A stretch of DNA of 64,000 bases from the NCBI GenBank assembly GCA_030710605.1, contig CP092876.1, positions 64,294,115-64,358,114 on the forward strand, written 5' to 3'. This DNA comes from Cordylochernes scorpioides. Its lineage: Eukaryota; Arthropoda; Arachnida; Pseudoscorpiones; Chernetidae. Under the pieces are notes generated by a model. It was not told the origin of the DNA, did no database searches, and worked only from the letters and a program-made list of their open reading frames with translations. Of the stretch, positions 4,024 to 62,532 are shown piece after piece. Made by a program: the position numbers and the translations under genes. Position 1 is the stretch's first letter. Each line of letters opens with the position of its first letter.

Positions 4024-4323
4024 TTGGGGGGTCGGTGGAAGGCTGGTTAAACCGTTTGATTTTCGACCACTACGACCCGGGTTCTATTCCCACATGGGAC
4101 ACTTTTTTCTGTTTAAAAAAAAAAATGTCAAATAGCCCCCGATTCTTGCAAAAGTCCAACCCCACCAGCGGGTGCAAGTATCCAAACAAGGCTCTGGCAC
4201 ATTTGTAAGTGCAAAGTCAAACTGCTTTTCACATGTGTAAACATGTGGTGCGCTTATAATAAAAGCAGTCGCTAACTACCCACCATGATTATCATGGCCT
4301 GTACCACGTGTACTAGGGATAAG
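4024..4323 (+). mobile_element. tRNA-derived SINE, family C
   Basis: The head (GGGGTCGGTGGAAGGCTGG onwards) contains a pol III B-box-like GGGTTCTATTCCC followed by an acceptor-like CACATGGGACAC. The body carries CACATGTGTAAACATGTGG and ACCATGATTATCATGGCC, both self-complementary. The 3' end is ACTAGGGATAAGC plus an A run. Related copies: 6168-6290 (body only), 13644-13873 (minus), 42789-43076, 54842-55346. Confidence 0.7.
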
Positions 4324-4662
4324 CAAAAAAAAAAAAAAAGTGGTCATTTTGGCAATACTGCACATCTACACTCCTATATCCATGCCTGGTTATAACAACA
4401 TTACTTGGGACCAAGATTATATTTATCTCAAACATGGGTGTTGCTATAGCCATGGTTAAAACAATGGGCGACTCTAAAAACTTAGAAGTTGGAAAATTTC
4501 CTGTTATGACCAAATTGCTCCTATAAAAGAGGGGATCATAACAATATTTATATATCTTAAGAAAGTGACTATTGAAATAGACAAATGTAAAGGAATTGGG
4601 AATCCAGTGGGAGTAACTATCGAACTAGAGAAATGGGAAGCAAATATATGTTCAGATATACA

Positions 4663-4953: not shown

Positions 4954-5209
4954 CTATAAATAGATAATTTTATTTTTCTTCTCTCTTTCTCTTGTTTCTA
5001 TTTTTCATTGAGTGCCACAATGTCTTTAGTGAGACACCGGGCTTTATTTTTATATAGTTTAATAAAGTTGGAAGCAATGGGTAATCCAGTTTGAGGCCTC
5101 CCATGTGAGATAGTTGGAGTAGGTCATTGAGTTAGGTAGTTGTTATTTTCTAAAGGCGGTAGATTCCCGGGATGCGATTGCTCAGGAGTTGACTTCGCGT
5201 GTGTTCCAG

Positions 5210-5292
5210 ATGCTCACCATGAAGCTCCGCAAGCCTTACACAACTGCCAGCATCTGGTCATCCGGCAAAATTACCTGTACAGGCGCCACCAG
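5210..5292 (+). CDS. TBPL1: TBP-like protein 1 (TRF2), internal exon
   Basis: An 83-nt exon with acceptor GTGTGTTCCAG just before it and donor AG|GTACAG after it. It starts in phase 0 and ends with two bases of a codon. It encodes the conserved TBPL1 strand containing MKLRKPYTTASIWSSGKI, in the first half of the TBP-like saddle. The family protein is a TBP paralogue that works with TFIIA/TFIIB at promoters lacking a TATA box. Upstream exon or exons (N-terminus plus the first strands, roughly 50 residues in relatives) are not found in the first 5.2 kb, so the gene probably starts outside the window. Confidence 0.9.
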
Positions 5293-5642
5293 GTACAGTC
5301 TTCCCTTGCTCTGGTTGTTGATGCCTGGGTCCAGCCTTCTTCAGTTTACACCAGCTGCACAGACTCTTCCATCTCTTGGTCAAGGTTTCTTTGGTGCTAA
5401 GAGGTTTCTTGGTGATGACATGAGGAACCAGCCAGGTGTTTAGCACAGTTCAAACACATTTCTCACTCCCAGATTTACTGTTTTGTCAGTCATATTCAAT
5501 ATCTCTGTTCTCTCACCAGCTTATTCCATCCTGCTGTGTGCCTGGCTCCAATTTCTCACTACCTACTCCGTTCTTGCTCCTGGGACGTCAAAATACATAC
5601 ATGGATGGTTCAATGGTCACTCTTTTCTATTAAAACACACTA

Positions 5643-11902: not shown

Positions 11903-12103
11903 CAGAGGGTGTTTCCTTTCAAATGAAACGATTTCAAACGTCCGTTAGAACTTTATTTTTCGAACGTGAATTTTTTTCATGTGTTCTATGTGCTTCCCCT
12001 TCTTCTTGGCTATCTCCCTGCATCGGACTTTCCAAGCTGCGAACACTTCCTTGACTTTGGAGAGCGAAACATTCGACCACTCCTCTTGTGCGGCTTTCCA
12101 AAG
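11903..12103. repeat. 201-bp terminal inverted repeat, left
   Basis: Reads from CAGAGGGTGTTTCC to CGGCTTTCCAAAG. It holds the 3' UTR and the C-terminal codons of the transposase. It matches 13000-13200 in reverse complement; the only clear difference I see is the second base (A versus G). Confidence 0.85.
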
Positions 12104-13015
12104 TCCGGCCTCAGTTTTGGGACGTCGGTTGAAGAGCCGTTGTTTCAACATACCGAACCCGTAAAAATCCAGTGGGCTGGCGTCGGGAGACTTCACTGGA
12201 ATGTCCGAGTTCCTGATAAAATTTAGGCCTAGGGTGTCCTTCATTTCTTGTAGGAACTGTTGGGTTTTGTTGGAGGTATGGGAAGAGGCTTTGTCGTGAT
12301 GAAGGAACACTTTGTCCATTTCCCCTGGGTAAAGGTCCTTCAGTTGTTCGATGACAGGCTTCAGAACGCATTCTATATAGAATTCTGAGTTCACCTTCAC
12401 CTTCGATGGAACCTTTATGAGCGGAAGGACTCCACGGCCAGTCATTACCCCGACAACCATGAAACCTTTAGGGAAAGTTTCGGAGCATTGGTGAACCCAA
12501 TTATCCGGGACCTGATTGCCTCTTTTGATGTAACAGATCTTCCGGATTCCATTGCAATACGTCACATACATCCATGCTTCGTCCAATGTTGCAGTATATT
12601 CCGATCTGGAACCGGCCAGGTGTTCCTCGTAGAGCTTCCGGGCATTCGTTGCACGGTTTTTCATGTGGAAAGGGGTGAGCTTGTGAACCTTGCCTTTTCG
12701 TCGGGTATCCAGTTCCAAATCTTTGTGAATGATGTTATTTATCGTTTTTAGCGATGTTCCACACATTCTGGAAAGTTGGCGCTGAGATGGTGGATTTTCA
12801 GTAGTTGCTAGCCGCTTTACCTTGGAAACCGTGGCGGGGGTCCGCACCGGACGTGGTCGATCGACTTGAAATTTTTGCCCATTGGATTCAGCTTCCCTTT
12901 TCTTTCCGATGCCATTTACTACCCTACATATTGTAGCTTTGCCAACATCTAGTCCTTCTGCTTTTAGCTTTTTCACTATGACGCTATAACTGTTTCCTTC
13001 TTTGGAAAGCCGCAC
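11945..13015 (-). CDS. Mariner-type DDE/D transposase, 5' end replaced
   Basis: A 356-codon intact frame. Residues ~1-35 hold the end of the first helix-turn-helix (LSKEGNSYSVIVKKLKAEG), residues ~60-100 the second. The catalytic triad is D145 (TLDEAWMY), D241 (FLHHDKASSH) and D283 (SPDASPLDFYGFG), with 41 residues between the last two, so a DD41D spacing. Full-length relatives begin about 10-20 residues earlier. Here the sequence upstream switches at position ~13000 into an inverted copy of the 3' end, so the native start is gone and the first Met codon is not the original. No internal stops. Probably inactive or dependent on a new start, though the frame is otherwise clean. Confidence 0.88.
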   Translation of the reverse strand: MRLSKEGNSYSVIVKKLKAEGLDVGKATICRVVNGIGKKREAESNGQKFQVDRPRPVRTPATVSKVKRLATTENPPSQRQLSRMCGTSLKTINNIIHKDLELDTRRKGKVHKLTPFHMKNRATNARKLYEEHLAGSRSEYTATLDEAWMYVTYCNGIRKICYIKRGNQVPDNWVHQCSETFPKGFMVVGVMTGRGVLPLIKVPSKVKVNSEFYIECVLKPVIEQLKDLYPGEMDKVFLHHDKASSHTSNKTQQFLQEMKDTLGLNFIRNSDIPVKSPDASPLDFYGFGMLKQRLFNRRPKTEAGLWKAAQEEWSNVSLSKVKEVFAAWKVRCREIAKKKGKHIEHMKKIHVRKIKF

Positions 13016-13200
13016 AAGAGGAGTGGTCGAATGTTTCGCTCTCCAAAGTCAAGGAAGTGTTCGCAGCTTGGAAAGTCCGATGCAGGGAGATAGCCAAGAA
13101 GAAGGGGAAGCACATAGAACACATGAAAAAAATTCACGTTCGAAAAATAAAGTTCTAACGGACGTTTGAAATCGTTTCATTTGAAAGGAAACACCCTCCG
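13000..13200. repeat. 201-bp terminal inverted repeat, right
   Basis: Inverted duplicate of 11903-12103. The junction with the original element is at CTTTGGAAAG (about 13000-13010), a sequence shared by both parental positions, i.e. microhomology at the switch point. Confidence 0.85.
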
Positions 13201-28789: not shown

Positions 28790-31051
28790 AAAAAAATAGA
28801 ATATCGCAATTGTTGTTCTCCATTTATATAAAACATGGCGTTGTTTTTCTCCATTCCTATAGAACATCGCAAAATTGTGCTCGAACCTTTTAGAACAGCA
28901 CCATTTGTTGTCCTCCATTCCTCTATAAAATATTGCCATTGTTGTCCTCTATCCTTATATAACTTTACCATTTGTTGTCCTCCATTCCTCTATAAAATAT
29001 TGCCATTGTTGTCCTCTATCCTTATATAACTTTACCATTTGTTTTTCTCCATTCCTATATAATACATTGCCATTGTTTCCCTCCATTCCTATATTACAAC
29101 ATCATTTTTGTTCCCCATTAATATAAAACATGGCCATTGTTGTCCTCCATTCCTATATAATACATTGCCATTGTTTCCCTCCATTCCTATATTACAACAT
29201 CATTTTTGTTCCCCATTAATATAAAACATGGCCATTGTTGTCCTCCATTCCTATATAATACATTGCCATTGTTTCCCTCCATTCCTATATTACAACATAA
29301 TTGTTGTCCCCCATTAATATAAAACATGGCCATTGTTGTCCTCCATTCCTATATAATACATTGCCATTGTTTCCCTCCATTCCTATATTACAACATCATT
29401 TTTGTTCCCCATTAATATAAAACATGGCCATTGTTGTCCTCCATTCCTATATAATACATTGCCATTGTTTCCCTCCATTCCTATATTACAACATCATTTT
29501 TGTTCCCCATTAATATAAAACATGGCCATTGTTGTCCTCCATTCCTATATAATACATTGCCATTGTTTCCCTCCATTCCTATATTACAACATAATTGTTG
29601 TCCCCCATTAATATAAAACATGGCCATTGTTGTCCTCCATTCCTATATAATACATTGCCATTGTTTCCCTCCATTCCTATATTACAACATCATTTTTGTT
29701 CCCCATTAATATAAAACATGGCCATTGTTGTCCTCCATTCCTATATAATACATTGCCATTGTTTCCCTCCATTCCTATATTACAACATAATTGTTGTCCC
29801 CCATTAATATAAAACATGGCCATTGTTGTCCTCCATTCCTATATAATACATTGCCATTGTTTCCCTCCATTCCTAGATTACAACATCATTGTTGTCCCCC
29901 ATTAATATAAAACATGGCCATTGTTGTCCTCCATTCCTATATAATACATTGCCATTGTTTCCCTCCATTCCTATATTACAACATCATTTTTGTCCCCCAT
30001 TAATATAAAACATGGCCATTGTTGTCCTCCATTCCTATATAATACATTGCCATTGTTTACCTCCATTCCTAGATTACAACATCATTGTTGTCCCCCATTA
30101 ATATAAAACATGGCCATTGTTGTCCTCCATTCCTATATAATACATTGCCATTGTTTACCTCCATTCCTATATTACAACATAATTGTTGTCCCCCATTAAT
30201 ATAAAACATGGCCATTGTTGTCCTCCATTCCTATATAATACATTGCCATTGTTTACCTCCATTCCTATATTACAACATCATTGTTGTCCCCCATTAATAT
30301 AAAACATGGCCATTGTTGTCCTCCATTCCTATATAATACATTGCCATTGTTTCCCTCCATTCCTATATTACAACATCATTGTTGTCCCCCATTAATATAA
30401 AACATGGCCATTGTTGTCCTCCATTCCTATATAATACATTGCCATTGTTTCCCTCCATTCCTAGATTACAACATCATTGTTGTCCCCCATTAATATAAAA
30501 CATGGCCATTGTTGTCCTCCATTCCTATATAATACATTGCCATTGTTTCCCTCCATTCCTATATTACAACATAATTGTTGTCCCCCATTAATATAAAACA
30601 TGGCCATTGTTGTCCTCCATTCCTATATAATACATTGCCATTGTTTCCCTCCATTCCTAGATTACAACATCATTGTTGTCCCCCATTAATATAAAACATG
30701 GCCATTGTTGTCCTCCATTCCTATATAATACATTGCCATTGTTTCCCTCCATTCCTAGATTACAACATCATTTTTGTTCCCCATTAATATAAAACATGGC
30801 CATTGTTGTCCTCCATACCTATATAATACATTGCCATTGTTTCTCTCCATTCCTAGATTACAACATCATTGTTGTCCCCCATTAATATAAAACATGGCCA
30901 TTGTTGTCCTCCATTCCTATATAATACATTGCCATTGTTTACCTCCATTCCTAGATTACAACATCATTGTTGTCCCCCATTAATATAAAACATGATCATT
31001 GTTGTCCTCCATTCCTATATAATACATTGCCATTGTTTCCCTCCATCCTAT
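28790..31051. repeat. Minisatellite array, 98-bp higher-order unit (left part)
   Basis: From about 29100 to 31050 roughly twenty 98-bp units follow each other (for example CATGGCCATTGTTGTCC at 29129 and 29227). Each unit is a trimer of 32-34-bp monomers that all contain CCATTGTTGTCCTCCATT-like text ending in a TATAA or ATTA motif. Units differ by few substitutions, so the array is young. The left margin (28790-29100) has degenerate monomers. Confidence 0.9.
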
Positions 31052-31237
31052 TGTACAGTTCCAATCAAAAAGAACGAGTTTGAAGAAACAATGAGACGAT
31101 TCTAATCAGTAGAAACTCTGACTTTATTAATCCTTTGACCTATATATAGATATCGCGCTTCACGCGGACATGCAAATATACAAGTAAAAATATACAAAAC
31201 AAATCAATATCATGCAAATGTCGCGAGGTATGCGACA
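31052..31237 (-). repeat. 3' LTR (minus-strand sense)
   Basis: 186 bp with TG...CA ends. It differs from the other LTR at one position (ACAAAACAAATC versus ACAAAATAAATC). The end of the long reading frame runs about 100 bp into it before a stop. Confidence 0.9.
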
Positions 31238-32452
31238 GACTCCCCCTCCATGACCTCTCATCACTCCTGTGATGGGACTCCGGGTGGTCTATGATGAAAT
31301 TGTCCTCCGGCCACTTGGTGATGGCTATATCTTGCTTCCAGTTGATGGGGGTCGAGGTTACATCAGTGATTTCTGGCCCTTGTTCCTCAGTATTAGACTC
31401 CTTAGTGGGTTCTATTGTAGTTTCCATTCGAATTTCTTGTACATTATCTTCCATATCTTCCAATGATATTCTGAAGCAGTTCTCGTAAAGGAAATTTTGT
31501 TGGCTAATAAGAAACCTCCATTTCGAAGGCTCATCTTGTGAATAGCGTAGAATCTCCATTGTTAGTAGGTATAGGACTATCTTTAGAGCCATCTCCATCT
31601 CGTGATTCAGCTGCAATAATTGGTCACAATCACTTTGCAAAAAGGAAATTACATATTTATTCTCGATTTTCGGCAAACTATAGGAATGGCCATCGACAGA
31701 CTTCTTCACATAAATTAATTTGATTTTTGAATCCAATTTCATAAGTTCGGACTTCAATATATTCAAAATCACAATACAAAGCCAATTTCGTAAGTGGCGT
31801 AGTAAGCACTGGATCCAAACTAGCAACACACACTTTGGAATACAAAGAAAACCCATAGATATCTGAGGCCGTTTTGTAATTTTTCGAAGGAGTTTACCGG
31901 GAGAATGGTAAGCATCTTGTTCAACATCAGAATAGAGTTTCCTGCAGATATTTTTACGAGCTAATACCCTGTAATTCCACTCTGAAACACCCTTATAGTC
32001 CAGCATATTCTCTTCCACCCCAACAGATCGACTATCTGGAGAGCTCATCTTTAACTCCTTAATGAATTCAGTATGTATTTCACAAGCAGAGTTAAATTCT
32101 CGCATTTCATTATGGGTCCAAATTAGCTGAGAAACATTCTCGTAAAAAACATTCGGATTAGGATTATCATTCTTTACAAGTCCAGATATCTCAAAATCTT
32201 TCAACTTGGCAATGCAGTTGTTGGTTGGGATTTCATAATTCTCTCCTCCAATGTCGTAGTTCAAAACCTTTTGAGCAGTCAGTCGTATCAGAATATTTCT
32301 GGGACTTATATCATTGTGAACCAACCCGATGTTTTGCCCAGCATGACTCATCAAAATACAAATCTGACAAAGAATGCTCATTAATTGTTCTGGCGAAAGT
32401 TTTCCATTTTCCAATACTTTCTTTAGAGATTTCCCTCCATATTCAGGATGAA
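31140..32452 (-). CDS. Haspin-like kinase domain (third block of the LTR-borne gene)
   Basis: About 424 codons from the first Met at 32414; coding sense continues upstream in the same frame as HPEYGGKSLKKVLENGKL, the hinge and start of the C-lobe. The catalytic loop is GLVHNDISPRNILI (D35, N40; HND in place of HRD). KVLNYDIGGENYEIPTNN follows, very like the strand pair after the catalytic loop of haspin. The metal-binding motif is KLKDFEISGLVKND (D73), haspin-like in lacking DFG. Haspin phosphorylates histone H3 Thr3 in mitosis; whether this copy is active is unknown. The N-lobe is hard to recognise and no glycine-rich loop is obvious. The C-terminal third is unassigned and the frame ends inside the LTR. 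Confidence 0.75.
31240..31249 (-). other. Polypurine tract
   Basis: Minus-strand GGAGGGGGAG followed by TC and then the LTR start TGTCGC. Position and composition are those of the plus-strand primer of LTR retroelements. Confidence 0.7.
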
Positions 32453-32454
32453 AA

Positions 32455-33530
32455 CGACAAAATGAGATAAATTCATATCATTCAAATCTAAATTATTATT
32501 CTTTTCACTATCTTCAATAATATTTGAAAAACATCTAGATCCCAAATCACGAACAATCCAAAAATCTTTAGGATAACGAAGATTGGCTTGAGCACTACCT
32601 TGTAAGGTTCCGAAAGCATCAAAAATATTTATTTCCTTTTTATTCGTTCTAGGAGAAATATAAGACCAATTTTTTCTATGATCAATATTTGGATTCCTAT
32701 ATTCAGAAATCTGTTCAATTCTATAAACATAAGATCCGCCATTATCAGTAACATCCCTCATAACACATTTTGGCCATGTGCCTTTTCCAACTGGGACTAA
32801 CTTTCTACCCCAGAAGAGCTCGTCATAGGTTTGGATGTAATACAATTCCAGGCAATCTACGAGTAATTCCATCTTCGGTCTAGTTGGTCTGCCCATTTTG
32901 ACATACCACTTCTGAGTTCGAAGTAGCTGCAGGTAACGATAGAACCTCGTGGCCTCTAAAGTAAAGGATAAGACATCCTCTCCAATCATGGCAATGTCAC
33001 GTAGTCCTTTCTTTGTCCGATTCGCTTTCACAACTTCCTCGTATATATCTACAGGAGATCCTGGTAGAAAGAATATTGTTTTACCTCTATGCAAATATCC
33101 ACTTTCTATCTCTGAAATTTCCATCATTTCAATGTCGTATTTATCAAGCATGTTTTTTTGCATCTGGCTGAATTCTTTAGCATAAATACAAACTTTTTGG
33201 CAGCGTGTTAATTTCTTTAATACCTTTAAAATTAACAAACGACATCTTGCGTGATTGCATTTATCGAAATCACCTATTCCATGGCAGATAATAGCATCAC
33301 ATATTCCTAATTTCATATTTCTTTTTTCACCGCTTGTTTGAAACGGATAGATTCCTTTTTTGAGAGTTTCCAATAGAGTATCGTAACAAAGTAGCTCTCT
33401 CAAAGCTTCTTCGCCGGTACCAGGCTTTGGTTCTTTTTTGCAAGTACCAGACTCCTTAGTAGGTTCCTTTTCGCCAGTACCAGACTCCTTAGTAGGTTTC
33501 TTTTCGCCAGTACCAGGCTTTGGTTCTTTT
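32455..33530 (-). CDS. SRR1-like domain (second block of the LTR-borne gene)
   Basis: In-frame sense starts after a Lys/Pro/Gly/Thr repeat (KKEPKPGTGEKKPTKESGTG) near 33530. The stretch at about 33298-32960 reads IICHGIGDFDKCNHARCRLL, VCIYAKEFSQMQKNML and TIFFLPGSPVDIYEEVVKAN, matching the SRR1 plan (CYGIG.F....AR.QL, YDP.F...E, T.FFMPHC...LY..L..AN), though the usual PHC is PGS. SRR1-like proteins are small and of poorly known biochemistry (linked to circadian and heme regulation). Downstream, WPKCVMRDVTDNGGSYVYRI and KDFWIVRDLGSRCFSNIIED may form a reduced kinase N-lobe (inference). A one-base shift at 32451-32454 separates it from the kinase block. Confidence 0.7.
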
Positions 33531-34319
33531 TTTGCCAGTACCAGACTCCTTAATAGGTTCTTTTTCTCCAGCTTGGGTGTCAGGGACATCAATAATGCAA
33601 TCAGAAAGTTTTTCTGTATTCTCTGTATTATTGTCAATATCCCCAGCTTGAGTGGTAGGAACATCAATAATGTAATCAGAAATTTCTTCTGTATTCTCTG
33701 AATCTTTGTCAATTTCCCCAGCTTGAGTGTAAGTGGCATCATCAAGATCACAAAGTCCTGCATTATCTGCATCAATACCAGCAATCACATCTACCTCTTT
33801 CGTAATAGGCTCTGCACTTTCAGTTCCTAAAACTGACCTTTTATCAACTTGAGCATTTTCGCTTTCTTCAACTTCACCAGAATTTTTTTCAACTTCAGCC
33901 TTTTCACTTTCATCTGCTTCAACGGATTTTTTCTCAATTTCGGCTTTTTCACTTTCTTCCGTTTCTACAACTGAATTTTTCACAACTTGAGATTTTTTAC
34001 TTTCTTCAACTTCGAAAAGTAAGTCCATTATCAAACGTTGCTGCCTCACCATCGTCCTGATTTCAGATTTTTCAAGACTTTTTAGAGACTCAATATTTGC
34101 CTCTTCTTTCTCTTCTTCTTCGTCTACATCTTCAACAACTGAATATTTGAGATATTCTTTTTGTTCATAGTAATCCTCTTCGCTGAGATATTCTTCTTTC
34201 TTATTTCCACAAAGAATGCTCATCATCAAGCTTTGTTGCTCCACCATTTCCCTGAGGAGACTTTCCATGGTCGATCCTGAGGATCCTTCACTTCTTCGTC
34301 CTGTCGTCGGCTGCGCCAT
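33527..34319 (-). CDS. Acidic repeat-rich N-terminus (first block of the LTR-borne gene)
   Basis: Starts at ATG 34319-34317, 3 nt inside the interior and overlapping the primer-binding-like site. After MAQPTTGRRSEGSSGSTMES it repeats SLLREMVEQQSLMMSILCGN and, 80 residues on, RTMVRQQRLIMDLL (a duplicated amphipathic helix). Then come four VEESEKAEVEKNS-type units and three TQAGEIDKDSENTEEISDYI-type units. Mostly charged and likely disordered. The frame is lost at an A7 run (33527-33533); read with six A, it would continue straight into the second block. Confidence 0.72.
34302..34319 (-). promoter_or_regulatory. Primer-binding-site-like sequence overlapping the start codon
   Basis: Minus-strand TGGCGCAGCCG begins 3 nt after the LTR. 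Ten of its eleven bases match TGGCGCAGTCG, the complement of the 3' end of tRNA-Ser used as primer by several insect Ty3-type elements. The ATG of the long frame is the A plus the first bases of this site. Confidence 0.55.
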
Positions 34320-34321
34320 GT

Positions 34322-34507
34322 TGTACAGTTCCAATCAAAAAGAACGAGTTTGAAGAAACAATGAGACGATTCTAATCAGTAGAAACTCTGACTTTATTAA
34401 TCCTTTGACCTATATATAGATATCGCGCTTCACGCGGACATGCAAATATACAAGTAAAAATATACAAAATAAATCAATATCATGCAAATGTCGCGAGGTA
34501 TGCGACA
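34322..34507 (-). repeat. 5' LTR (minus-strand sense), promoter
   Basis: 186 bp. In sense orientation it carries CTATATATAGG (34419-34409), a TATA-like box, then AATAAA (34398-34393). A short R region is implied. Transcription from here would run directly into the ATG at 34319. Confidence 0.85.
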
Positions 34508-35200
34508 CCTATATTACAACATCATTGTTGTCCCCCATTAATATAAAACATGGCCATTGTTGTCCTCCATACCTATATAATACATTGCCATTGTTTCCCT
34601 CCATTCCTAGATTACAACATCATTGTTGTCCCCCATTAATATAAAACATGGCCATTGTTGTCCTCCATTCCTATATAATACATTGCCATTGTTTCCCTCC
34701 ATTCCTATATTACAACATCATTGTTGTCCCCCATTAATATAAAACATGGCCATTGTTGTCCTCCATACCTATATAATACATTGCCATTGTTTCCCTCCAT
34801 TCCTAGATTACAACATAATTGTTGTCCCCCATTAATATAAAACATGGTCATTGTTGTCCTCCATACCTATATGATACATTGCCATTGTTTCCCTCCATTC
34901 CTAGATTACAACATCATTGTTGTCCCCCATTAATATAAAACATGGCCATTGTTGTCCTCCATACCTATATGATACATTGCCATTGTTTCCCTCCATTCCT
35001 AGATTACAACATAATTGTTGTCCCCCATCAATATAAAACATGGCCATTGTTGTCCTCCATACCTATATAATACATTGCCATTGTTTCCCTCCATTCCTAG
35101 ATTACAACCTAATTGTTGTCCCCCATTAATATAAAACATGGCCATTGTTGTCCTCCATACCTATATAATACATTGCCATTGTTTCCCTCCATTAAAACAA
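34508..35200. repeat. Minisatellite array, 98-bp higher-order unit (right part)
   Basis: About seven more 98-bp units continuing the array interrupted by the LTR element, with variants such as CCTCCATACCTATATAATAC that are rare on the left side. Confidence 0.88.
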
Positions 35201-36063
35201 AACATCGTCATTGTTGTCCTCAATTCCTACAGAACATCGCCATTATTGTGCACAATTCATTTAGAATATCGCTATTGTTGGCCTCCATTCCTACAGAACA
35301 TCGCTATTTTTGTTTATCATTCTTTTAGAATAGACCATTGTCGTCTCTTCCATTCTTCAGAACATCGCAATAGATGTCCACCATTCTTCTAGAATATTCC
35401 CATTTCTATCCTTCATTCAGATCTAACATTGCTATTGTTGTTCTCTATTCCTTAAGAACACATCATTAATGTTGTCCTACATTATATTAGAACATCGCTA
35501 TTATTTTCCTCCACCTTTTCGGTATTGCTTTTTTTACTTTATAAAACTTGGCCATTGTTTACCTTAATTACTAAAAAACATCCTTATCGTGGTTCCCCAT
35601 TCATACAGAACATATTCATTGTTTACCATTAATCATTTTTATATCGCTATAGTTGCCTTCTATTCACATAGAAACATCGCCATTGTTGTGTTTTATTACT
35701 GTGAAACACATCACCACTACCGCCCTCTATTCTTTTAGAATAACGACATTGTTTTTTTACACTCCGTTTTTACACGATTTTGTTTCCCTCTATTTCTATA
35801 CAACATCGCCAATAATATCCTCCATTCTTATAGAAAATCGCCATTGTAGTCTCCCATATAGAATATATTGTTATTGTTGTTTTCCATTCCTATAGAACAT
35901 ATCCATTGCTGTTCTTCTTTATTTTATAACCACCTCTCTCCTGTGTTGTTTTCTATTATAATAGAACACATTGTCATTGTTGCCTCCACTCTCTTAAAAC
36001 TTCGCCATTGTTGTCCTTCATTTATATAGAACACATTCATTGATGTATTTATCTTATAAAATT

Positions 36064-52616: not shown

Positions 52617-53572
52617 ATTTCTACAGGTTTCTGGAATATTTTATTTAGTTTTATGGTATCTTTTTCTCACGTTTTTATCACATCTCTTATAATGGTATTT
52701 TAGAATATCCTCCCGTATTTTATATTTGTTCCATGATTTTCTTTAGTTATTCTTTTCATTTATGCATTCTTCTACCATTCTCCTACTTTTTATGGCATCT
52801 TTCTTACGTTTTTCTGACATATATATCATTTTTTGGCACTTCTCCATTAGTCTTCTATCATTTCTACTCATGTTTTGGACAACTTTACTCAATTTTATCT
52901 AGCATATCTTCAAATGGCTCGCTGAGGTGTTTGAGTAATTCTGCTATTATTTGCCGAGTTCTTTATATGGATCATTTATTATTCCCTTATTTTTTGATAA
53001 AATTACGCGAGATGGTTTTCATACCATATTTCTGGAAAAGGTTTTCATATCTTCTATGCAGTTCAACTATTTTAGTTGCTGTGTGATATATATGATGCTA
53101 GTATAAGACCTTTTTATCGGTTTATTTAACCGATTTTCCTTAGTCTTGTGGAAGCCGAGAGACTTCCTTCCTGCCTGCTGGGATGACAGACCACGCCGTC
53201 GGTAAACATGCAAGCGGGGCCTGGAAATAGGAGATTATCACCGCTGTGTGGCGCGGCAAATCGGCGGAAGTCAATCAGAACCCAATGAACATTCTAGGGT
53301 GTTGTCCTTTTGTCTTCCTTTATCGACTTCCTATAAAAATGTAGCTAATGCGTAATACTAATAAAAACTTTGTAATACTTTTCTGGGTCAGGCTGGACTT
53401 AATAAATGGACTCACCACAGTCTTTCTTTTGTGTAAGTGTAGATTTGCAGCAGTGCGATTTCAATGCATTGATTATTCTATATGATATTTATAACATCTT
53501 TCAAATGATGTACTGTAAACTCTTTACCTTTCTGTGTGATATTTTAACTGCCTGTGTGTGTAAGAATTTATC
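52617..53572. other. No gene seen
   Basis: AT-rich, partly continuing the TTTCTGGCATC-type degenerate repeat. 53100-53300 is GC-richer without an exon-like frame. Confidence 0.4.
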
Positions 53573-54546
53573 TGTCTTATATCTCTGCCTGTTTGTCCGA
53601 TATTTCTGACTGTCTGTCTGAATTCTCTGCCTGTTTGTATGATATCTCTGTCTGTTTGTCTGATATATCTGCCTGTCTGTCTGATATCTCTGTCTGTTTG
53701 TCTGATATCTCTGCCTGTCTGTCTGATATCCCTGTCTGTTTGTCTGATATCTCTGCCTGTCTGTCTGATATCTCTGCCTGTTTGTCTGATATCTCTGCCT
53801 GTCTGTCTGATATCTCTGCCTGTTTGTCTGATATATCTGCCTGTCTTTCTTATATCTCTGCCTGCCTGTCTGATATCTCTGCCTGTCTGTCTGATATCTC
53901 TGCCTGTCTGTTTGTTATCTCTGCCTGTCTGTCTGATATCTTTGCCTGTTTGTCTGATATCTCTGCCTGTCTGTCTGATATCTCTGCCTGTCTGTCTGAT
54001 ATCTCTGCCTGTCTGTCTGATATCTCTGCCTGTCTGTCTGATATCTCTGCCTGTCTGTCTGATATCTCTGCCTGTCTGTCTGATATATCTGCCTGTCTGT
54101 CTGATATCTCTGCCTGTTTGTCTGATATCTCTGCCTGTCTGTTTGATATCTTTGCCTGTTTGTCTGATATCGCTGCCTGTCTGTCTGATATCTCTGCCTG
54201 TCTGTCTGATATCTCTGCCTGTCTGTCTGATATCTCTGCCTGTCTGTCTGATATATCTGCCTGTCTGTCTGATATCTCTGCCTGTTTGTCTGATATCTCT
54301 GCCTGTCTGTCTGATATCTCTGCCTGTCTGTCTGATATCTCTGTCTGTCTGATCTGATATCTCTGCCTGTCTGTCTGATATATCTGCCTGTCTGTCTGAT
54401 ATCTCTGCCTGTTTGTCTGATATCTCTGCCTGTCTGTTTGATATCTCTGCCTGTCTGTCTGATATCTTTGCCTGTTTGTCTGATATCTCTGCCTGTCTGT
54501 CTGATATCTCTGCCTGTCTGTCTGATATCTCTGCCTGTCTATCTTG
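53573..54546. repeat. 21-bp satellite, about 46 units
   Basis: Units of TGTCTGTCTGATATCTCTGC plus C, with recurring TTTG and ATATATC variants. As 21 is a multiple of three and the unit has few stops, long frames appear in several phases: CLSDISA repeats on the plus strand and DRQAEIS repeats on the minus strand. One unit near 54345 is shortened, breaking the phase. Confidence 0.92.
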
Positions 54547-58259: not shown

Positions 58260-59397
58260 TCACAATCCTTGCTCAATGTGGCACCCTTCATTCTCAAACA
58301 CCGCCTGCAGACGATAGATTACAGAATGGACAGCATTAAATAAAATATCTGATGAAATTGATGAAACGTGCCGTCTGATAGAAGCCTTCAACATGACCAA
58401 TGTGGTAGGCCGGCATCGATAAACACGCGACTTAATGTACCCCCATAGCCAAAAATCGCAAGGCGTCAAGTCTGGTGATCTTGAAGGCCACTGGTGTATA
58501 AAGTGGCGACTTATCACACGATCTTCACCGAACGTATCCTTCAGCAATTGTTTGGCACCGCGGGAGATATGAGGAGGTTCTCCATCTTGCATGAATGTTA
58601 TTTCGTTCAGTGCTTGTCTGTCCTGCAATATGGAGATAACCTTTTCTCTCAAAAGTTGAACATAACGTTCACCAGTTACTGAAGCGGTTTTAAATGTTCT
58701 TCCATTTATTTCTTCAAAGAAAAATGGCCCAATAATAAAAGAAGAAGTGAACCCACACCAAACTATAACTCTGCGCTGATGAAGTGGCATTTCTGTAAAA
58801 ATCCTAGGGTTTTCTGTTGCCCAAATGCGGCTGTTTTTAGTGTTAACTTCTCCGTTCAGAGAAAATTGAGCTTCATCTGTCCACAGAACATTCAACAGCC
58901 AGTTTTCATCAATATCAATTTGCCGGAAAACCCATGAAGCGAATTCTTGACGCTTCTCAAAATCGCCGACTTTTAGCTCGTGAAGTCTTTGAATTTTTTA
59001 ACGGGTATTTTTTAAGACAAATTCTTAGTGCTCTCCAAACTTTTCTATACCAAATCCCCGTTTGTCGAGCACTTACTTCTCCATACGTGGATAACGTTTC
59101 AATAGCTTCAACATTCTGCGAAACCGTAGCAACCCCTGACTTGCATGTCGATGGTCTTCCACTCCGAGATTTTGCTTCCAGAGATCCAGTCTTCTCCAAA
59201 GTTTTTATCATTCGCTTTAGAGAGTAGCAACTCATGGGTCCTTTACCGCTTCGAATACCTTTAAAGGTACGAAACGCTTGTAAAGCTTCAGTTGCAGAAT
59301 CTGAATTGCAATAAAAAAATTTCACCAAGGGTGATTTATGCTGTAGTGATGGTAAAATAAATTGTTGTGCATGTAAATAGATGAAGATTATTTGCAT
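58260..59397 (-). pseudogene. Tc1/mariner-like transposase with one frameshift
   Basis: The N-terminal block (59397-58957) has ATEALQAFRTFKGIRSGKGP and LKRMIKTLEKTGSLEAKSRS, a helix-turn-helix. The C-terminal block (to 58260) has D7 in NVLWTDEAQFSLNGE, D104 in ITFMQDGEPPH and D147 in RSPDLTPCDFWLWG, with 42 residues between the last two. The blocks are in different frames; a single extra base in a six-T run (58994-58999) accounts for it, as coding sense continues through both sides. Otherwise no stops. This type (QDGxPPH) is common in insects and other arthropods. Ends are not defined. Confidence 0.85.
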
Positions 59398-59584: not shown

Positions 59585-60717
59585 ATGATGGCGGTGGTGG
59601 AGGAAGTCAGCAGGCCAACAAGCGGCCGCGTTCTGAGGACGAAGACCTCCTCCCGTCTTCCCATCACCAATTTAAATTCAACAGCACGGCGAACTTGTTC
59701 AACTTTGAGTGCCAAACCTTCGAAGCGATCATTGCCGACACCAGCCTGGACTCCCGAAAAAATACAGATGGCCACCAAAGGACTGGTGCTGACTCTCGTC
59801 CAAGAGGCAGAACTTCTTCTTAAGGACGCCTTCAAGGGAGCCAGTCTAGGAAGACCCAATCCCACAGCCAAAGTCCCGATTCCCTCCACCTCTTTCGCCT
59901 CGGTAGTGGCAGAGAAAGACAAGCCGGTAAAGCCTGCACCTCCGAAACCCAAAGCGAAATCCACATTTGTGAATCTGGCTTCTTCCTTCGAATCGCATGT
60001 AGACGTCAGGTCGGCTAACCCCAAAGCAACCCAAGGGAATTTTTGAGGGAAATTCAAAAGATTCATCCTTCCCTAGCGTCATCAAAACACGTGGTGGCGT
60101 CCATCAACACCAGCGGCGAGGTGGTTTTTCACCCCAAAACAACCCAAATGGCAAAGTAGCTGGCCACTGGGCTGACCTCCCTGCAAACGGGCCTAAGCTG
60201 CCCCGAGTGCCCGGTTATCCTACCAAGATTCTGCCTCTTCAGAGTGGACGGGGAGGTGCGGGACGATGAGATATGCGAGAGCTTCCGCTCCAACCACTCC
60301 GTGCAGTCACTCCTGGAAAAGCGTGAAATCAGGGTAGTCCATCGATCGAATAATGCGGCACACAGCACTAGTACAGTGTTCATCGAAGTGGACAACCAAG
60401 TCGACGAAATCCTCGGTCAACATGGACGTATTCCTGTGGTGGATCTAGTGCACAGGTATGAGCGCAGTCATACTTTAAAGCAATGCTTCCGTTGCTGTGG
60501 CTTCGGCCACCGCGCTTCTGCCTGTCCAGCTGCCCATCCAATCTGCTATCGCTGCGGCTCTGCAGAGCATGAGGGCATCCGATGCTCGGTCGAGCCAAGC
60601 CAAAGCCGCTGCTGCCGCTGCAGAAAAAAAATCTGGAGCTCCCACAACCACTTTGCCACATTATCTACCTGTCCCTTTGTAAAAGAGAGAATACCCCGAA
60701 CAAGTAACAATGTCTAG
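59585..60717 (+). pseudogene. LINE ORF1 with three zinc knuckles
   Basis: A proline/serine-rich first part (KVPIPSTSFASVVAEKDKPV) ends at a stop at 60046 after a frame change at a T5 run. The second part (about 60060-60717) holds EVRDDEICESFRSNHSVQSL and three CCHC-type knuckles: CFRCCGFGHRASAC, CYRCGSAEHEGIRC and CCRCRKKIWSSHNHF...C. An additional in-frame TAG occurs near 60157. The gag-like protein binds RNA in the retrotransposition particle. Knuckles plus RNase H in the next ORF fit the I/R1/Jockey-type LINEs. Confidence 0.78.
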
Positions 60718-60963
60718 GCCATTGCGTGTCCTGCAGGTGAACGCTAAAAAATCACCAACTGTCATTCTTGAAATTGCAAATTTGGCAAATTCGACACAGG
60801 CCGACATCGTGCTCCTGCAAGAACTCTCAACTAACTTCTTCTGGCCCACACGTGGGTTTCAGGCTTTTTTTTTTGTCCCAGGCGCCTACATCCCCTCGGG
60901 AATTGTGGCACGTAGCACACAGAATGTACGTCCTCCCAACTCGGCACTCCCCAGGGTTCAGCG
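60710..60963 (+). pseudogene. LINE ORF2 start: endonuclease N-terminus only
   Basis: ATG at 60710 overlaps the ORF1 stop by eight bases (ATGTCTAG), a usual arrangement in this group. MSRPLRVLQVNAKKSPTVIL and ADIVLLQELSTNFFW are the first strands of an APE-type endonuclease, with N of VNA and E of LLQE as metal-site residues. Sequence is then lost: at about 60949 the text jumps into the reverse transcriptase. Confidence 0.78.
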
Positions 60964-62532
60964 CTAAGTCCTTTCCTGTGGAACATAGTTGCTCGGACCA
61001 TCTTCACCCTTCCCTCCATCATAGATAGCCGATTAATAGCTTACGCGGACGACTTCACCTTTATGACTCAGGTTCGTAGTCGCCTGCCGGTCTCTGCCAC
61101 TAACACCTTCTTGGAGAGGTCGACATCTTGGTGCACGATAAATGGTCTTAATATAAACCCCATTAAGACTCAAGCTTGCCTGTTCCAATGGCGTAATGTC
61201 CACCCCAACTCCGAGACAGGGCTCAGAGTCCTTGGTCAACCTTTAAACATCAAGAAGACCGTCACAATCTTAGGAGTGGAGTTTTACCAGACCCGCGGAT
61301 TTGTCGCCCACCTACGCAAGATCACACGTAGATGCAGATCAATAATCCCACGACTCACCCACACCATACAGGGTAAATTTGGAATCTTCTTTTCAGCTGG
61401 ACGGAGCGTCAAATGGGGAGGTCGTGCTCTCTCCAGCGAAGGCATTAGGCAACTTAGGAGCCTTCACTGCAATTTTGCGAAACGTGTACTGAGAGGAGGT
61501 CCTTACACACCTACAGTCTAAGCCAACTCCATCACCGGCAGCCCTCCTTTCGATATTATTGTTAGGTCTCGTACGGCGTTCCTGAAGGAAATCAATGAAG
61601 GAAATTTTGAATCTAGACCAGGCCCTGCTTCTTTGCCATACCCTCCAGATAGACGTCAATTGTCTTTCAGTCTAAACATCGAGGAGATAACAACACCTAT
61701 AATATTCACAGACGGATCAAAAAATGAGGCTGGGGTGGGCGCTGTAATTGTTCCCTCATCAGAAGATCAGCAGCCCGTTCTCTTACGGCTCCATCCCGAC
61801 TGCACAGCCTTCCAGGCTGAACTTCTGGCAATCCGCTGGGCGGTCCGTCTGGTGAAGGAAGGTTATTCAAGAAATGCGATCACTATCGCGTCGGAGTGCA
61901 GATCAGCTCTGTCAGCCATATGTACGTCAGGTCCAGTTCGATCGACATTAGTAGCTAAGATTATTCTCGCACTGAACACCAACCAAAACGTAAATCTGTG
62001 TTGGGTGCCGGGACACTGCGGCATCGACGGAAAGGAAAGAGCAGACAGAGCTGCTAAGAACGCGGCCGTTTTGATCTTAGAGCCATCATTTTCCATTCTG
62101 CCTAGAAGCCTGGCCCGTAACCACTCACGCGCGGCAGCCCTAGACGCATGGACGGAGGTTTATTGCCAGGACCACTACAACAGACACCTGAGGAGAATAG
62201 CCCATACTCCAGACCGGCTGCTCCAATTCCTCCCTAAGGTCTGTCCTGGAGAAGTCACCACCACCTTACTTACAGGACATGGCCATGTTCGGGCAGACTT
62301 GGTTCTCTGGCGTCTTGGGGAAGACCCATCTTGCCCACATTGTATGGAGGAACAACAGACTGCGGACCACTTTCTATTCAGATGCCATGCTTTCAAGCAA
62401 CACAGAATGAAGACAGCTCTGCTGCTTGGGAAGACCTCCTTCGACCCAGTCTCGTTGGCTGGACTCCCGGGTTCTCTGCAGGCATGGAACTTCCTGACCA
62501 GCTGGTTCGGCTCTGCAATTGGCTCTATATAA
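60949..62532 (+). pseudogene. LINE ORF2: reverse transcriptase end and RNase H
   Basis: Begins inside the palm at PQGSALSPFLWNIVARTIF, then LIAYADDFTFMTQV (catalytic YADD) and the thumb. A TAA at 61519 interrupts the frame, which then continues. RNase H follows: TPIIFTDGSKNEAGVGAVIV (D), CTAFQAELLAIRWAVRL (E), TIASECRSALSAI (third acid, Glu instead of the usual Asp) and VPGHCGIDGKERADRAA (H and D). The C-terminal C.HC....TADH.LF.C motif is present (PHCMEEQQTADHFLFRC). The copy ends near 62545. Confidence 0.85.

Follow-up and report, generated by a model that had tools for sequence, protein, structure and literature searches.

A recently mobile long terminal repeat element family of the harlequin pseudoscorpion with SRR1, haspin-like kinase and NAP segments in place of pol

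The genome of Cordylochernes scorpioides, the harlequin pseudoscorpion, harbours a family of long terminal repeat (LTR) elements, one copy of which occupies positions 31052-34507 of the 64-kb stretch of contig CP092876.1 analysed here (hereafter the window). This element, of 3456 bp, is coded on the minus strand, and the family to which it belongs is very probably a non-autonomous Ty3/gypsy LTR retrotransposon that has lost gag-pol, is mobilised in trans and carries a transduced chimeric gene. To our knowledge, most known cases in which an LTR element acquired a gene and lost pol come from plants and from infectious oncogenic retroviruses. The present family is an animal germline case, for which a likely helper, several mosaic generations, many open frames and very young insertions are found in one assembly. 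Copies and loci are referred to below by L numbers, and contigs by C numbers.

The preliminary description of the window had proposed 186-bp LTRs with one mismatch, flanked by the duplication CCTAT, and these ends are confirmed. In coding orientation, the 5' LTR spans 34322-34507 and the 3' LTR 31052-31237; each measures 186 bp, with a single mismatch at LTR position 149 and termini of the TG...CA type (TGTACAGT...ATGCGACA), and the 5' LTR contains TATATATAG and AATAAA motifs recognised by eye. The two copies of CCTAT lie at 31047-31051 and 34508-34512. Since the sequences adjoining the two LTRs differ, the direct repeats are not part of a longer duplication. Furthermore, the 26-bp LTR end, with up to three mismatches allowed, occurs in the window at these two LTRs alone and in none of 100 shuffles.

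The site reported after the 5' LTR and the tract reported before the 3' LTR are likewise present, on the minus strand. The candidate primer-binding site, TGGCGCAG (34311-34318), is separated from the 5' LTR by three bases (ACA) and overlaps the ATG of the reading frame (34319-34317); in the candidate TGGCGCAGCC, the first T doubles as the T of this ATG. The site is putatively tRNA-Ser-like. The polypurine tract, GGAGGGGGAG (31240-31249, minus strand), lies two bases (TC) from the 3' LTR, before which GGAGGGGGAGTC stands. Directly adjoining this LTR are 62 bp (31238-31299, minus strand; shorter in some subfamilies) kept from the gag-pol element described below as the likely helper (its positions 4041-4102). 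The insertion lies within a 98-bp satellite array, which surrounds it at 28924-31051 and 34508-35249 with approximately 95% matches, and related 32-bp units are found nearby.

Far from being a single copy without related LTRs, the window element has relatives throughout the assembly, where the exact 27-bp LTR start occurs 155 times, as against 0 occurrences of the reversed control pattern. Of the first 100 of these places listed, 26 are solitary, and the other 74 form 37 pairs on the same strand, spaced by less than 10 kb. A search with the window LTR gave at least 40 scored matches (40 scored among 1478 candidates), many of them paired at a distance of approximately 2.7-3.6 kb. With the SRR1 part of the cargo, for which 117 of 1281 candidates were scored, at least 134 matches were obtained; they are 66-100% identical, lie on every one of the 24 contigs and in some cases represent two pieces of the same copy. 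LTR matches were present on both sides in 14 of 15 further SRR1 loci (L034-L048, among which L046 and L048 repeat L013 and L011) and on one side in L041, while the polypurine tract was found in 22 of the 25 copies listed.

All 15 paired copies L009-L023 carry a 5-bp duplication at the LTR edges, which differs between insertions (for example ATTAA, AATTT, ATTGT, ATTTT, ATATT, ATATG, TTGAA and ATTAT). The flanks of L009, L010, L011, L013 and L017 are TA repeats, so that a duplication there says little; outside such repeats, thirteen different 5-bp duplications lie at exact LTR edges. The two LTRs of a copy are 97.3-100% identical in 29 of 30 measured pairs and fully identical in nine; these 30 include the window element, the helper and L077, as well as a mis-paired L044, whose LTRs, compared separately, are 99.4% identical over 161 bp. 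Together, the young LTR pairs and the differing duplications show that the family has moved recently, by LTR retrotransposition. The preliminary description had supposed recent mobility, and several copies with a common cargo and different target duplications do indeed exist. TA-rich or TA-repeat flanks are common (L009-L011, L013, L017, L038, L040, L042, L043, L047), which may reflect a target preference or the survival of copies at such sites. Locus L024 contains, near its positions 5160-5343, what resembles a solo LTR of this family, flanked on either side by TTTAT.

Not every copy is an independent insertion. L015 and L016, whose LTRs end in AGA rather than CA, share both flanks on C4 and are one insertion that was duplicated. 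L034, L035 and L036 share TAAAT on one chromosome, are the copies that lack the polypurine tract, and may be, and probably are, segmental duplicates.

The autonomous relative with similar LTRs that the preliminary description had looked for is represented by L076. A spacing of 4102-4106 bp is seen in 11 of the 37 LTR pairs (among the places listed), L076 being one of these, and between its LTRs a single gag-pol frame of 1294 residues follows an ATG at the same primer site. Pfam matches in this frame comprise reverse transcriptase (1.2e-29), RNase H (6.2e-34), the integrase zinc-binding domain (5.1e-18) and protease (5.8e-6); the integrase core falls below its cut-off, and no env match was obtained in the Pfam search of the frame. 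The best match in the PDB is the Ty3 gag-pol (1.4e-90). L076 is a compact Ty3/gypsy element and the likely helper of the cargo copies. The reverse transcriptase piece gave at least 113 scored matches (113 scored among 61743 candidates) of 92-100% identity, eight of them with a 1316-codon frame; seven of these eight are among the pairs of 4102-4106 bp, and the eighth lies outside the listed places. At least two odd-spaced LTR pairs (C9:65164835 and C3:34613558) also hold the helper reverse transcriptase, and LTR pairs of other spacings may contain other cargo.

Comparison with L076 reveals what the cargo copies have retained. The helper shares with them the LTR start and the primer site, and its polypurine tract, GGGGGGGGAG, differs by one base. 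All 12 cargo copies compared retain helper LTR sequence, which in most of them extends to approximately position 208-214, covering the primer site and the first codons, and in L042 to 175. At the other end, each preserves 43 to 62 bp ahead of the 3' LTR, a stretch that terminates within or close to the polypurine tract. Weak gag similarity (63-79%, helper positions 461-570) is seen in nine of the 12, the stretch reading STMESILRTMANQQRLM in the helper and STMESLLREMVEQQSLM in the window; no DNA match to the helper was obtained there for L018, L022 or L044. The remainder of gag and the whole of pol are replaced. LTR identity to the helper is 98.4% in L077, 97.4% in L079 and 85% in subfamily B, so the genome contains intact gag-pol copies whose ends are almost identical to those of some cargo copies. 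Copying in trans by this helper would be the obvious mechanism, as the shared ends suggest.

The interior of the window element had been described as one long coding region with an SRR1-haspin-like cargo and no retroviral domain. The last point agrees with our Pfam search, which gave no match to gag, reverse transcriptase or integrase among the interior frames, even though a short gag remnant is kept in most copies of the family. As regards the coding region, the window copy has three long minus-strand frames and a shorter one. The frame at 33489-34334 runs from MAQP through a gag-start remnant into acidic tandem repeats (45-, 75- and 33-bp units). The next, at 32423-33784, contains the SRR1 domain (approximately 32945-33301) followed by sequence that by eye resembles a kinase N-lobe, and that at 31140-32477 holds a kinase C-lobe-like part (match at approximately 32160-32453: HNDISPRN ... 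LKDFEIS), its C-terminal part passing through the polypurine tract into the LTR. The kinase continues out of frame at 31678-31893 as SDIYGFSLYSKV, with the kinase-like SDIYGFSLY, a continuation that is in one frame in the sister copy L012; the window copy is thus frame-broken and cannot encode the full protein as it stands. A NAP remnant, GPEITDVTSTPINWK... (31300-31379, minus strand), was assigned by identity to NAP-bearing copies, having no significant Pfam match of its own.

The domain searches sustain the SRR1 half of that cargo assignment and leave the haspin half weaker. SRR1 (PF07985) is matched in the window at 7.3e-13, with 49.2 bits against a curated cut-off of 24. The haspin profile (PF12330) has no match in the window copy, where the kinase stretch reaches 0.0016 with a generic kinase profile, below cut-off; in the PDB search haspin comes top at 0.0019, with PknB close behind at 0.0025.

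In other copies the cargo is a single chimeric frame of 749-1119 codons, starting from the ATG at the primer site in 13 of the 30 copies fetched; the other 17 yielded no frame of at least 749 codons, in the case of L045 solely on account of a start that the search pattern missed. The order is a scrap of gag, acidic repeats, the SRR1 domain and haspin-like kinase stretches, with a NAP piece in some subfamilies. Subfamily A (the window copy and L009-L014) has the gag-start (shortened in L014), acidic repeats, SRR1 and a kinase with HNDISPRN and DFE. Subfamily B (L017-L023), open for 974 codons in four of its seven members, has part of SRR1; its haspin-like stretch is a different one, with HDDLHINN and DFG, and is accompanied by a fragment of the A kinase and by a NAP piece. 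Subfamily C (L015, L016) has SRR1 and NAP, with no kinase core, and further variation is found in D (L034-L041, L043, L045), E (L042) and F (L044). A kinase stretch, PTNNCIAKLKDFEISGLV, is repeated in tandem within the frame five times in L012 and three times in L013.

Profile matches support these assignments. NAP (PF00956) is found in L022, of subfamily B, at 5.8e-28 (98.3 bits; cut-off 28.6), with NAP1L1 matched in the PDB at 8.9e-15, and in L016 at 51.5 bits alongside an SRR1 match; L012 matches the SRR1 profile at 3.3e-13. Haspin remains just under its 25-bit cut-off, with 23.4 bits (3.5e-5) in L022 and 23.2 bits in L077, and the best PDB kinase for L022 is haspin (1.5e-6). At least two cellular-gene segments are therefore joined in a frame, NAP and haspin-like in L022 and SRR1 and NAP in L016. 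A Pfam scan of the window element, L012, L016 and L022 gave no reverse transcriptase or integrase of their own. The idea of a transduced kinase gene is consequently in need of amendment: haspin is indeed the best kinase match, but the cargo is a mosaic that includes NAP, and its donor genes were not found. L077 (C3:171846850-171854050), in which helper-like LTRs enclose a B-type haspin-like kinase stretch, also holds a nested copia-like element with identical 248-bp repeats at 969-1216 and 4087-4334.

The HxD and DF aspartates are present in the cargo kinase. In copies that have the kinase N-lobe, the position of the catalytic lysine reads as arginine (VYRI, IYRI), judged by eye from spacing in a loose alignment, where the stand-alone haspin L081 has AFK. 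The cargo kinase probably lacks the usual catalytic lysine, and since this position appears to be arginine, a pseudokinase or a weak kinase would be expected.

The LTRs of A and D are only approximately 79% identical, yet their SRR1 regions differ by a nonsynonymous divergence (dN) of about 0.02 and a synonymous divergence (dS) of about 0.03. Between A and B, identity is 98% for 300 bp at the 3' end and 93-94% in kinase blocks, but falls to 68% in the first 1.46 kb. Blocks of such different age within one element indicate exchange between elements, for which template switching between co-packaged RNAs would be the natural route. Genome-wide, NAP has 91 matches, and approximately 55 of these stop at profile position 181-187, as is also the case for the element pieces.

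We propose that an L076-type gag-pol element would have been stripped of pol entirely and of gag almost entirely, and that segments from SRR1, haspin-like kinase and NAP genes, presumably transduced at the RNA level, took their place. The result would be one chimeric frame reaching from the primer-binding site through the polypurine tract, from which a chimeric protein would presumably be made. The cargo RNA would keep the LTRs, the primer site, usually some gag and the polypurine tract, and by virtue of these ends the proteins of intact L076-type copies could package, reverse-transcribe and integrate it. Pieces have also passed between elements whose LTRs differ.

Genome-wide, SRR1 has 150 matches, approximately 41 of which are the elements themselves, and haspin has 113; the remaining matches are mostly domain-sized open frames, in clusters. 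This stand-alone expansion is seen on C5, C18, C3, C10, C17 and others (L049-L074, L081). Some clusters are tandem units of approximately 7.94 kb on C18 and C5, and one stretch on C5 is 99.3% identical to one on C18 over 3.47 kb. On C5 there are at least five cases, and on C18 one, of an SRR1 frame lying 1-4 kb from a haspin frame, as in the adjoining pairs at 43976886 and 43978539 (C5) and 46606158 and 46608420 (C18), a linkage which suggests that one locus could have given both.

Several observations weigh against the proposal made above. Of 22 sampled stand-alone SRR1 loci, two gave no match to the cargo SRR1, and the other 20 are only 19-35% identical to it over the aligned stretches; the cargo NAP is 32% identical to one host NAP, and the kinase 28-31% to one stand-alone haspin. 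Donor genes were thus not found among the sampled host relatives, a sample covering a minority of the stand-alone copies. The cargo is not a recent copy of these sampled relatives: either the capture is old, or the donor lies outside the sample, or the source was a different genome. Introns are absent from the cargo, but the sampled host relatives are single open frames too, so that the intron-less state is no evidence for a route through RNA. Finally, the window LTR is only 76.6% identical to that of L076, and the helper of the window copy itself could therefore be another branch. A host NAP1-like gene (L080, C10:90675200-90676500) with a single open frame of 367 codons is possibly a retrogene.

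Spread of the copies by segmental duplication of DNA, with the LTRs incidental, would account for the shared flanks of L015 and L016 and the tract-less L034-L036, and the satellite setting of the window element favours rearrangement. As a general explanation, it is nonetheless very unlikely, being already contradicted for most sampled copies by the thirteen different duplications and by the seven 3.2-kb copies of subfamily B, which lie on 6 chromosomes in different flanks with LTR pairs 99.4-100% identical. The window copy likewise has differing flanks, even if some other copies are duplicates. It is even harder to credit, and in our view almost certainly wrong, that a host gene family of SRR1-haspin-NAP fusions was overrun by LTR insertions and is not mobile cargo. 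The huge expansion of SRR1 and haspin as stand-alone frames speaks for such a family; however, the start codon overlaps the primer site, the frame enters the 3' LTR, both the start and the sequence leading up to the 3' LTR also occur in the helper, and in copy after copy the frame lies between LTRs with target duplications, which already contradicts this explanation.

Whether the chimeric frame serves the retrotransposon is less clear-cut. Whole-frame dN/dS is 0.57-0.89 in the 15 pairs of 6 subfamily representatives, 13 of which fall below neutrality at p<0.05, although the pairs share branches and the repeats align poorly. When only the SRR1 part is considered, the ratio is close to or greater than 1 in many pairs, with too few substitutions to decide. 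Because of the shared branches, the poorly aligned repeats and these SRR1 values, constraint on the frame is weak at most. There is an appreciable chance, though we would put it below even, that the frame is a neutral passenger, open merely because it is young and yielding an inactive protein: the ratios are far from strong constraint, 17 of the 30 copies fall short of 749 codons, and no catalytic lysine is seen in the kinase. The 13 departing pairs offer soft evidence to the contrary; moreover, in simulation the probability that such a frame remains free of stops at 3% neutral change per lineage is at most 0.0125, yet several diverged subfamilies are open, although open copies were chosen for this comparison. 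We also entertain, as a speculative and rather improbable idea, that the frame encodes a selected element protein, in which haspin-like (pseudo)kinase, histone-chaperone and SRR1 modules, having replaced the enzymes and being continually reshuffled between elements with different LTRs, would act on host chromatin to favour the copying of the element or its helper. The very large stand-alone SRR1 and haspin families of the genome might then be the opponents in an arms race.

Acute transforming retroviruses keep the start of gag, have pol replaced by a cellular gene, often a kinase, and are copied by a helper. The pseudoscorpion family resembles them in its retained gag start and replaced pol; in contrast to them, it is a germline retrotransposon family with no env match in the frame of its likely helper, it carries several genes, and its cargo has long diverged from the sampled host relatives. 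TRIM and LARD elements are non-autonomous, lack pol, are mobilised by relatives and are mostly non-coding. The present family shares the absence of pol, whereas its interior is mostly a long frame (749-1119 codons in 13 of the 30 copies). The system that works most alike is maize Bs1, which presumably has no working pol and which also carries cellular-gene segments in a chimeric gene between LTRs. It is described in a 2026 review (PMC13317346) as an LTR element whose chimeric gene derives from segments of three cellular genes. Unlike Bs1, the pseudoscorpion family has an animal host, 155 exact LTR starts, at least 134 SRR1 matches and several mosaic subfamilies; it carries SRR1, haspin-like and NAP segments, and the LTRs of some copies are near-identical to those of an intact likely helper.

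PMC6431247 relates that retroviruses capture onc genes and that DNA trapped between LTRs can supplant much of the coding sequence and move in trans. Captured genes between LTRs in rice, sorghum, rotifers and planarians are mentioned in the same source and in PMC13317346; in the rotifer and planarian examples as given there, extra frames lie beside or within gag-pol, whereas in the pseudoscorpion element pol is gone. No instance of haspin, SRR1 or NAP inside an LTR element was found in the open-licence literature, subscription journals being outside the scope of the search. As far as that literature goes, the cargo, an animal host at such a scale, the mosaic exchange and the presence of a likely helper appear to be new. 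The family brings three questions within reach of sequence analysis and simple assays. These are the way in which cargo enters and is exchanged, the status of the cargo protein as a passenger or a product under selection, and, in view of the huge expansion of SRR1 and haspin frames in this genome, a possible mutual supply between such elements and gene families of the host.

Annotated genes of C. scorpioides can, moreover, be mobile elements. A protein annotated GSG2, a haspin name (P0001), starts with MAQP like the element frame, and in five others (P0002-P0006) cargo pieces are joined to pieces of Pao, copia, gypsy, other transposase or other genes; we take these five for putative gene-model mergers of neighbouring elements. 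In a set of 5.8 billion proteins, among a capped number of word-filtered candidates of restricted length, the window SRR1 piece gave no relatives, and those of L022 and L012 (5 and 6 proteins, respectively) were only from C. scorpioides. Scans of viral contigs yielded no virus or phage relative. Structure predictions were set aside, with a mean pLDDT of 30.2 for P0002 with five companions and 32.1 for P0001 alone.

The window contains other repeats and mobile sequences. Transposase-like frames, which we take to be Tc1/mariner, lie on the minus strand at 11945-13048 (a 367-codon open frame) and 58260-58997, with DDE_3 matches below cut-off. Pieces of a non-LTR retrotransposon occupy 60160-62532 on the plus strand, comprising a weakly matched zinc-knuckle frame, reverse transcriptase and RNase H. 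Finally, a 21-bp unit is repeated 46 times at 53571-54544 and is open in several frames on both strands.

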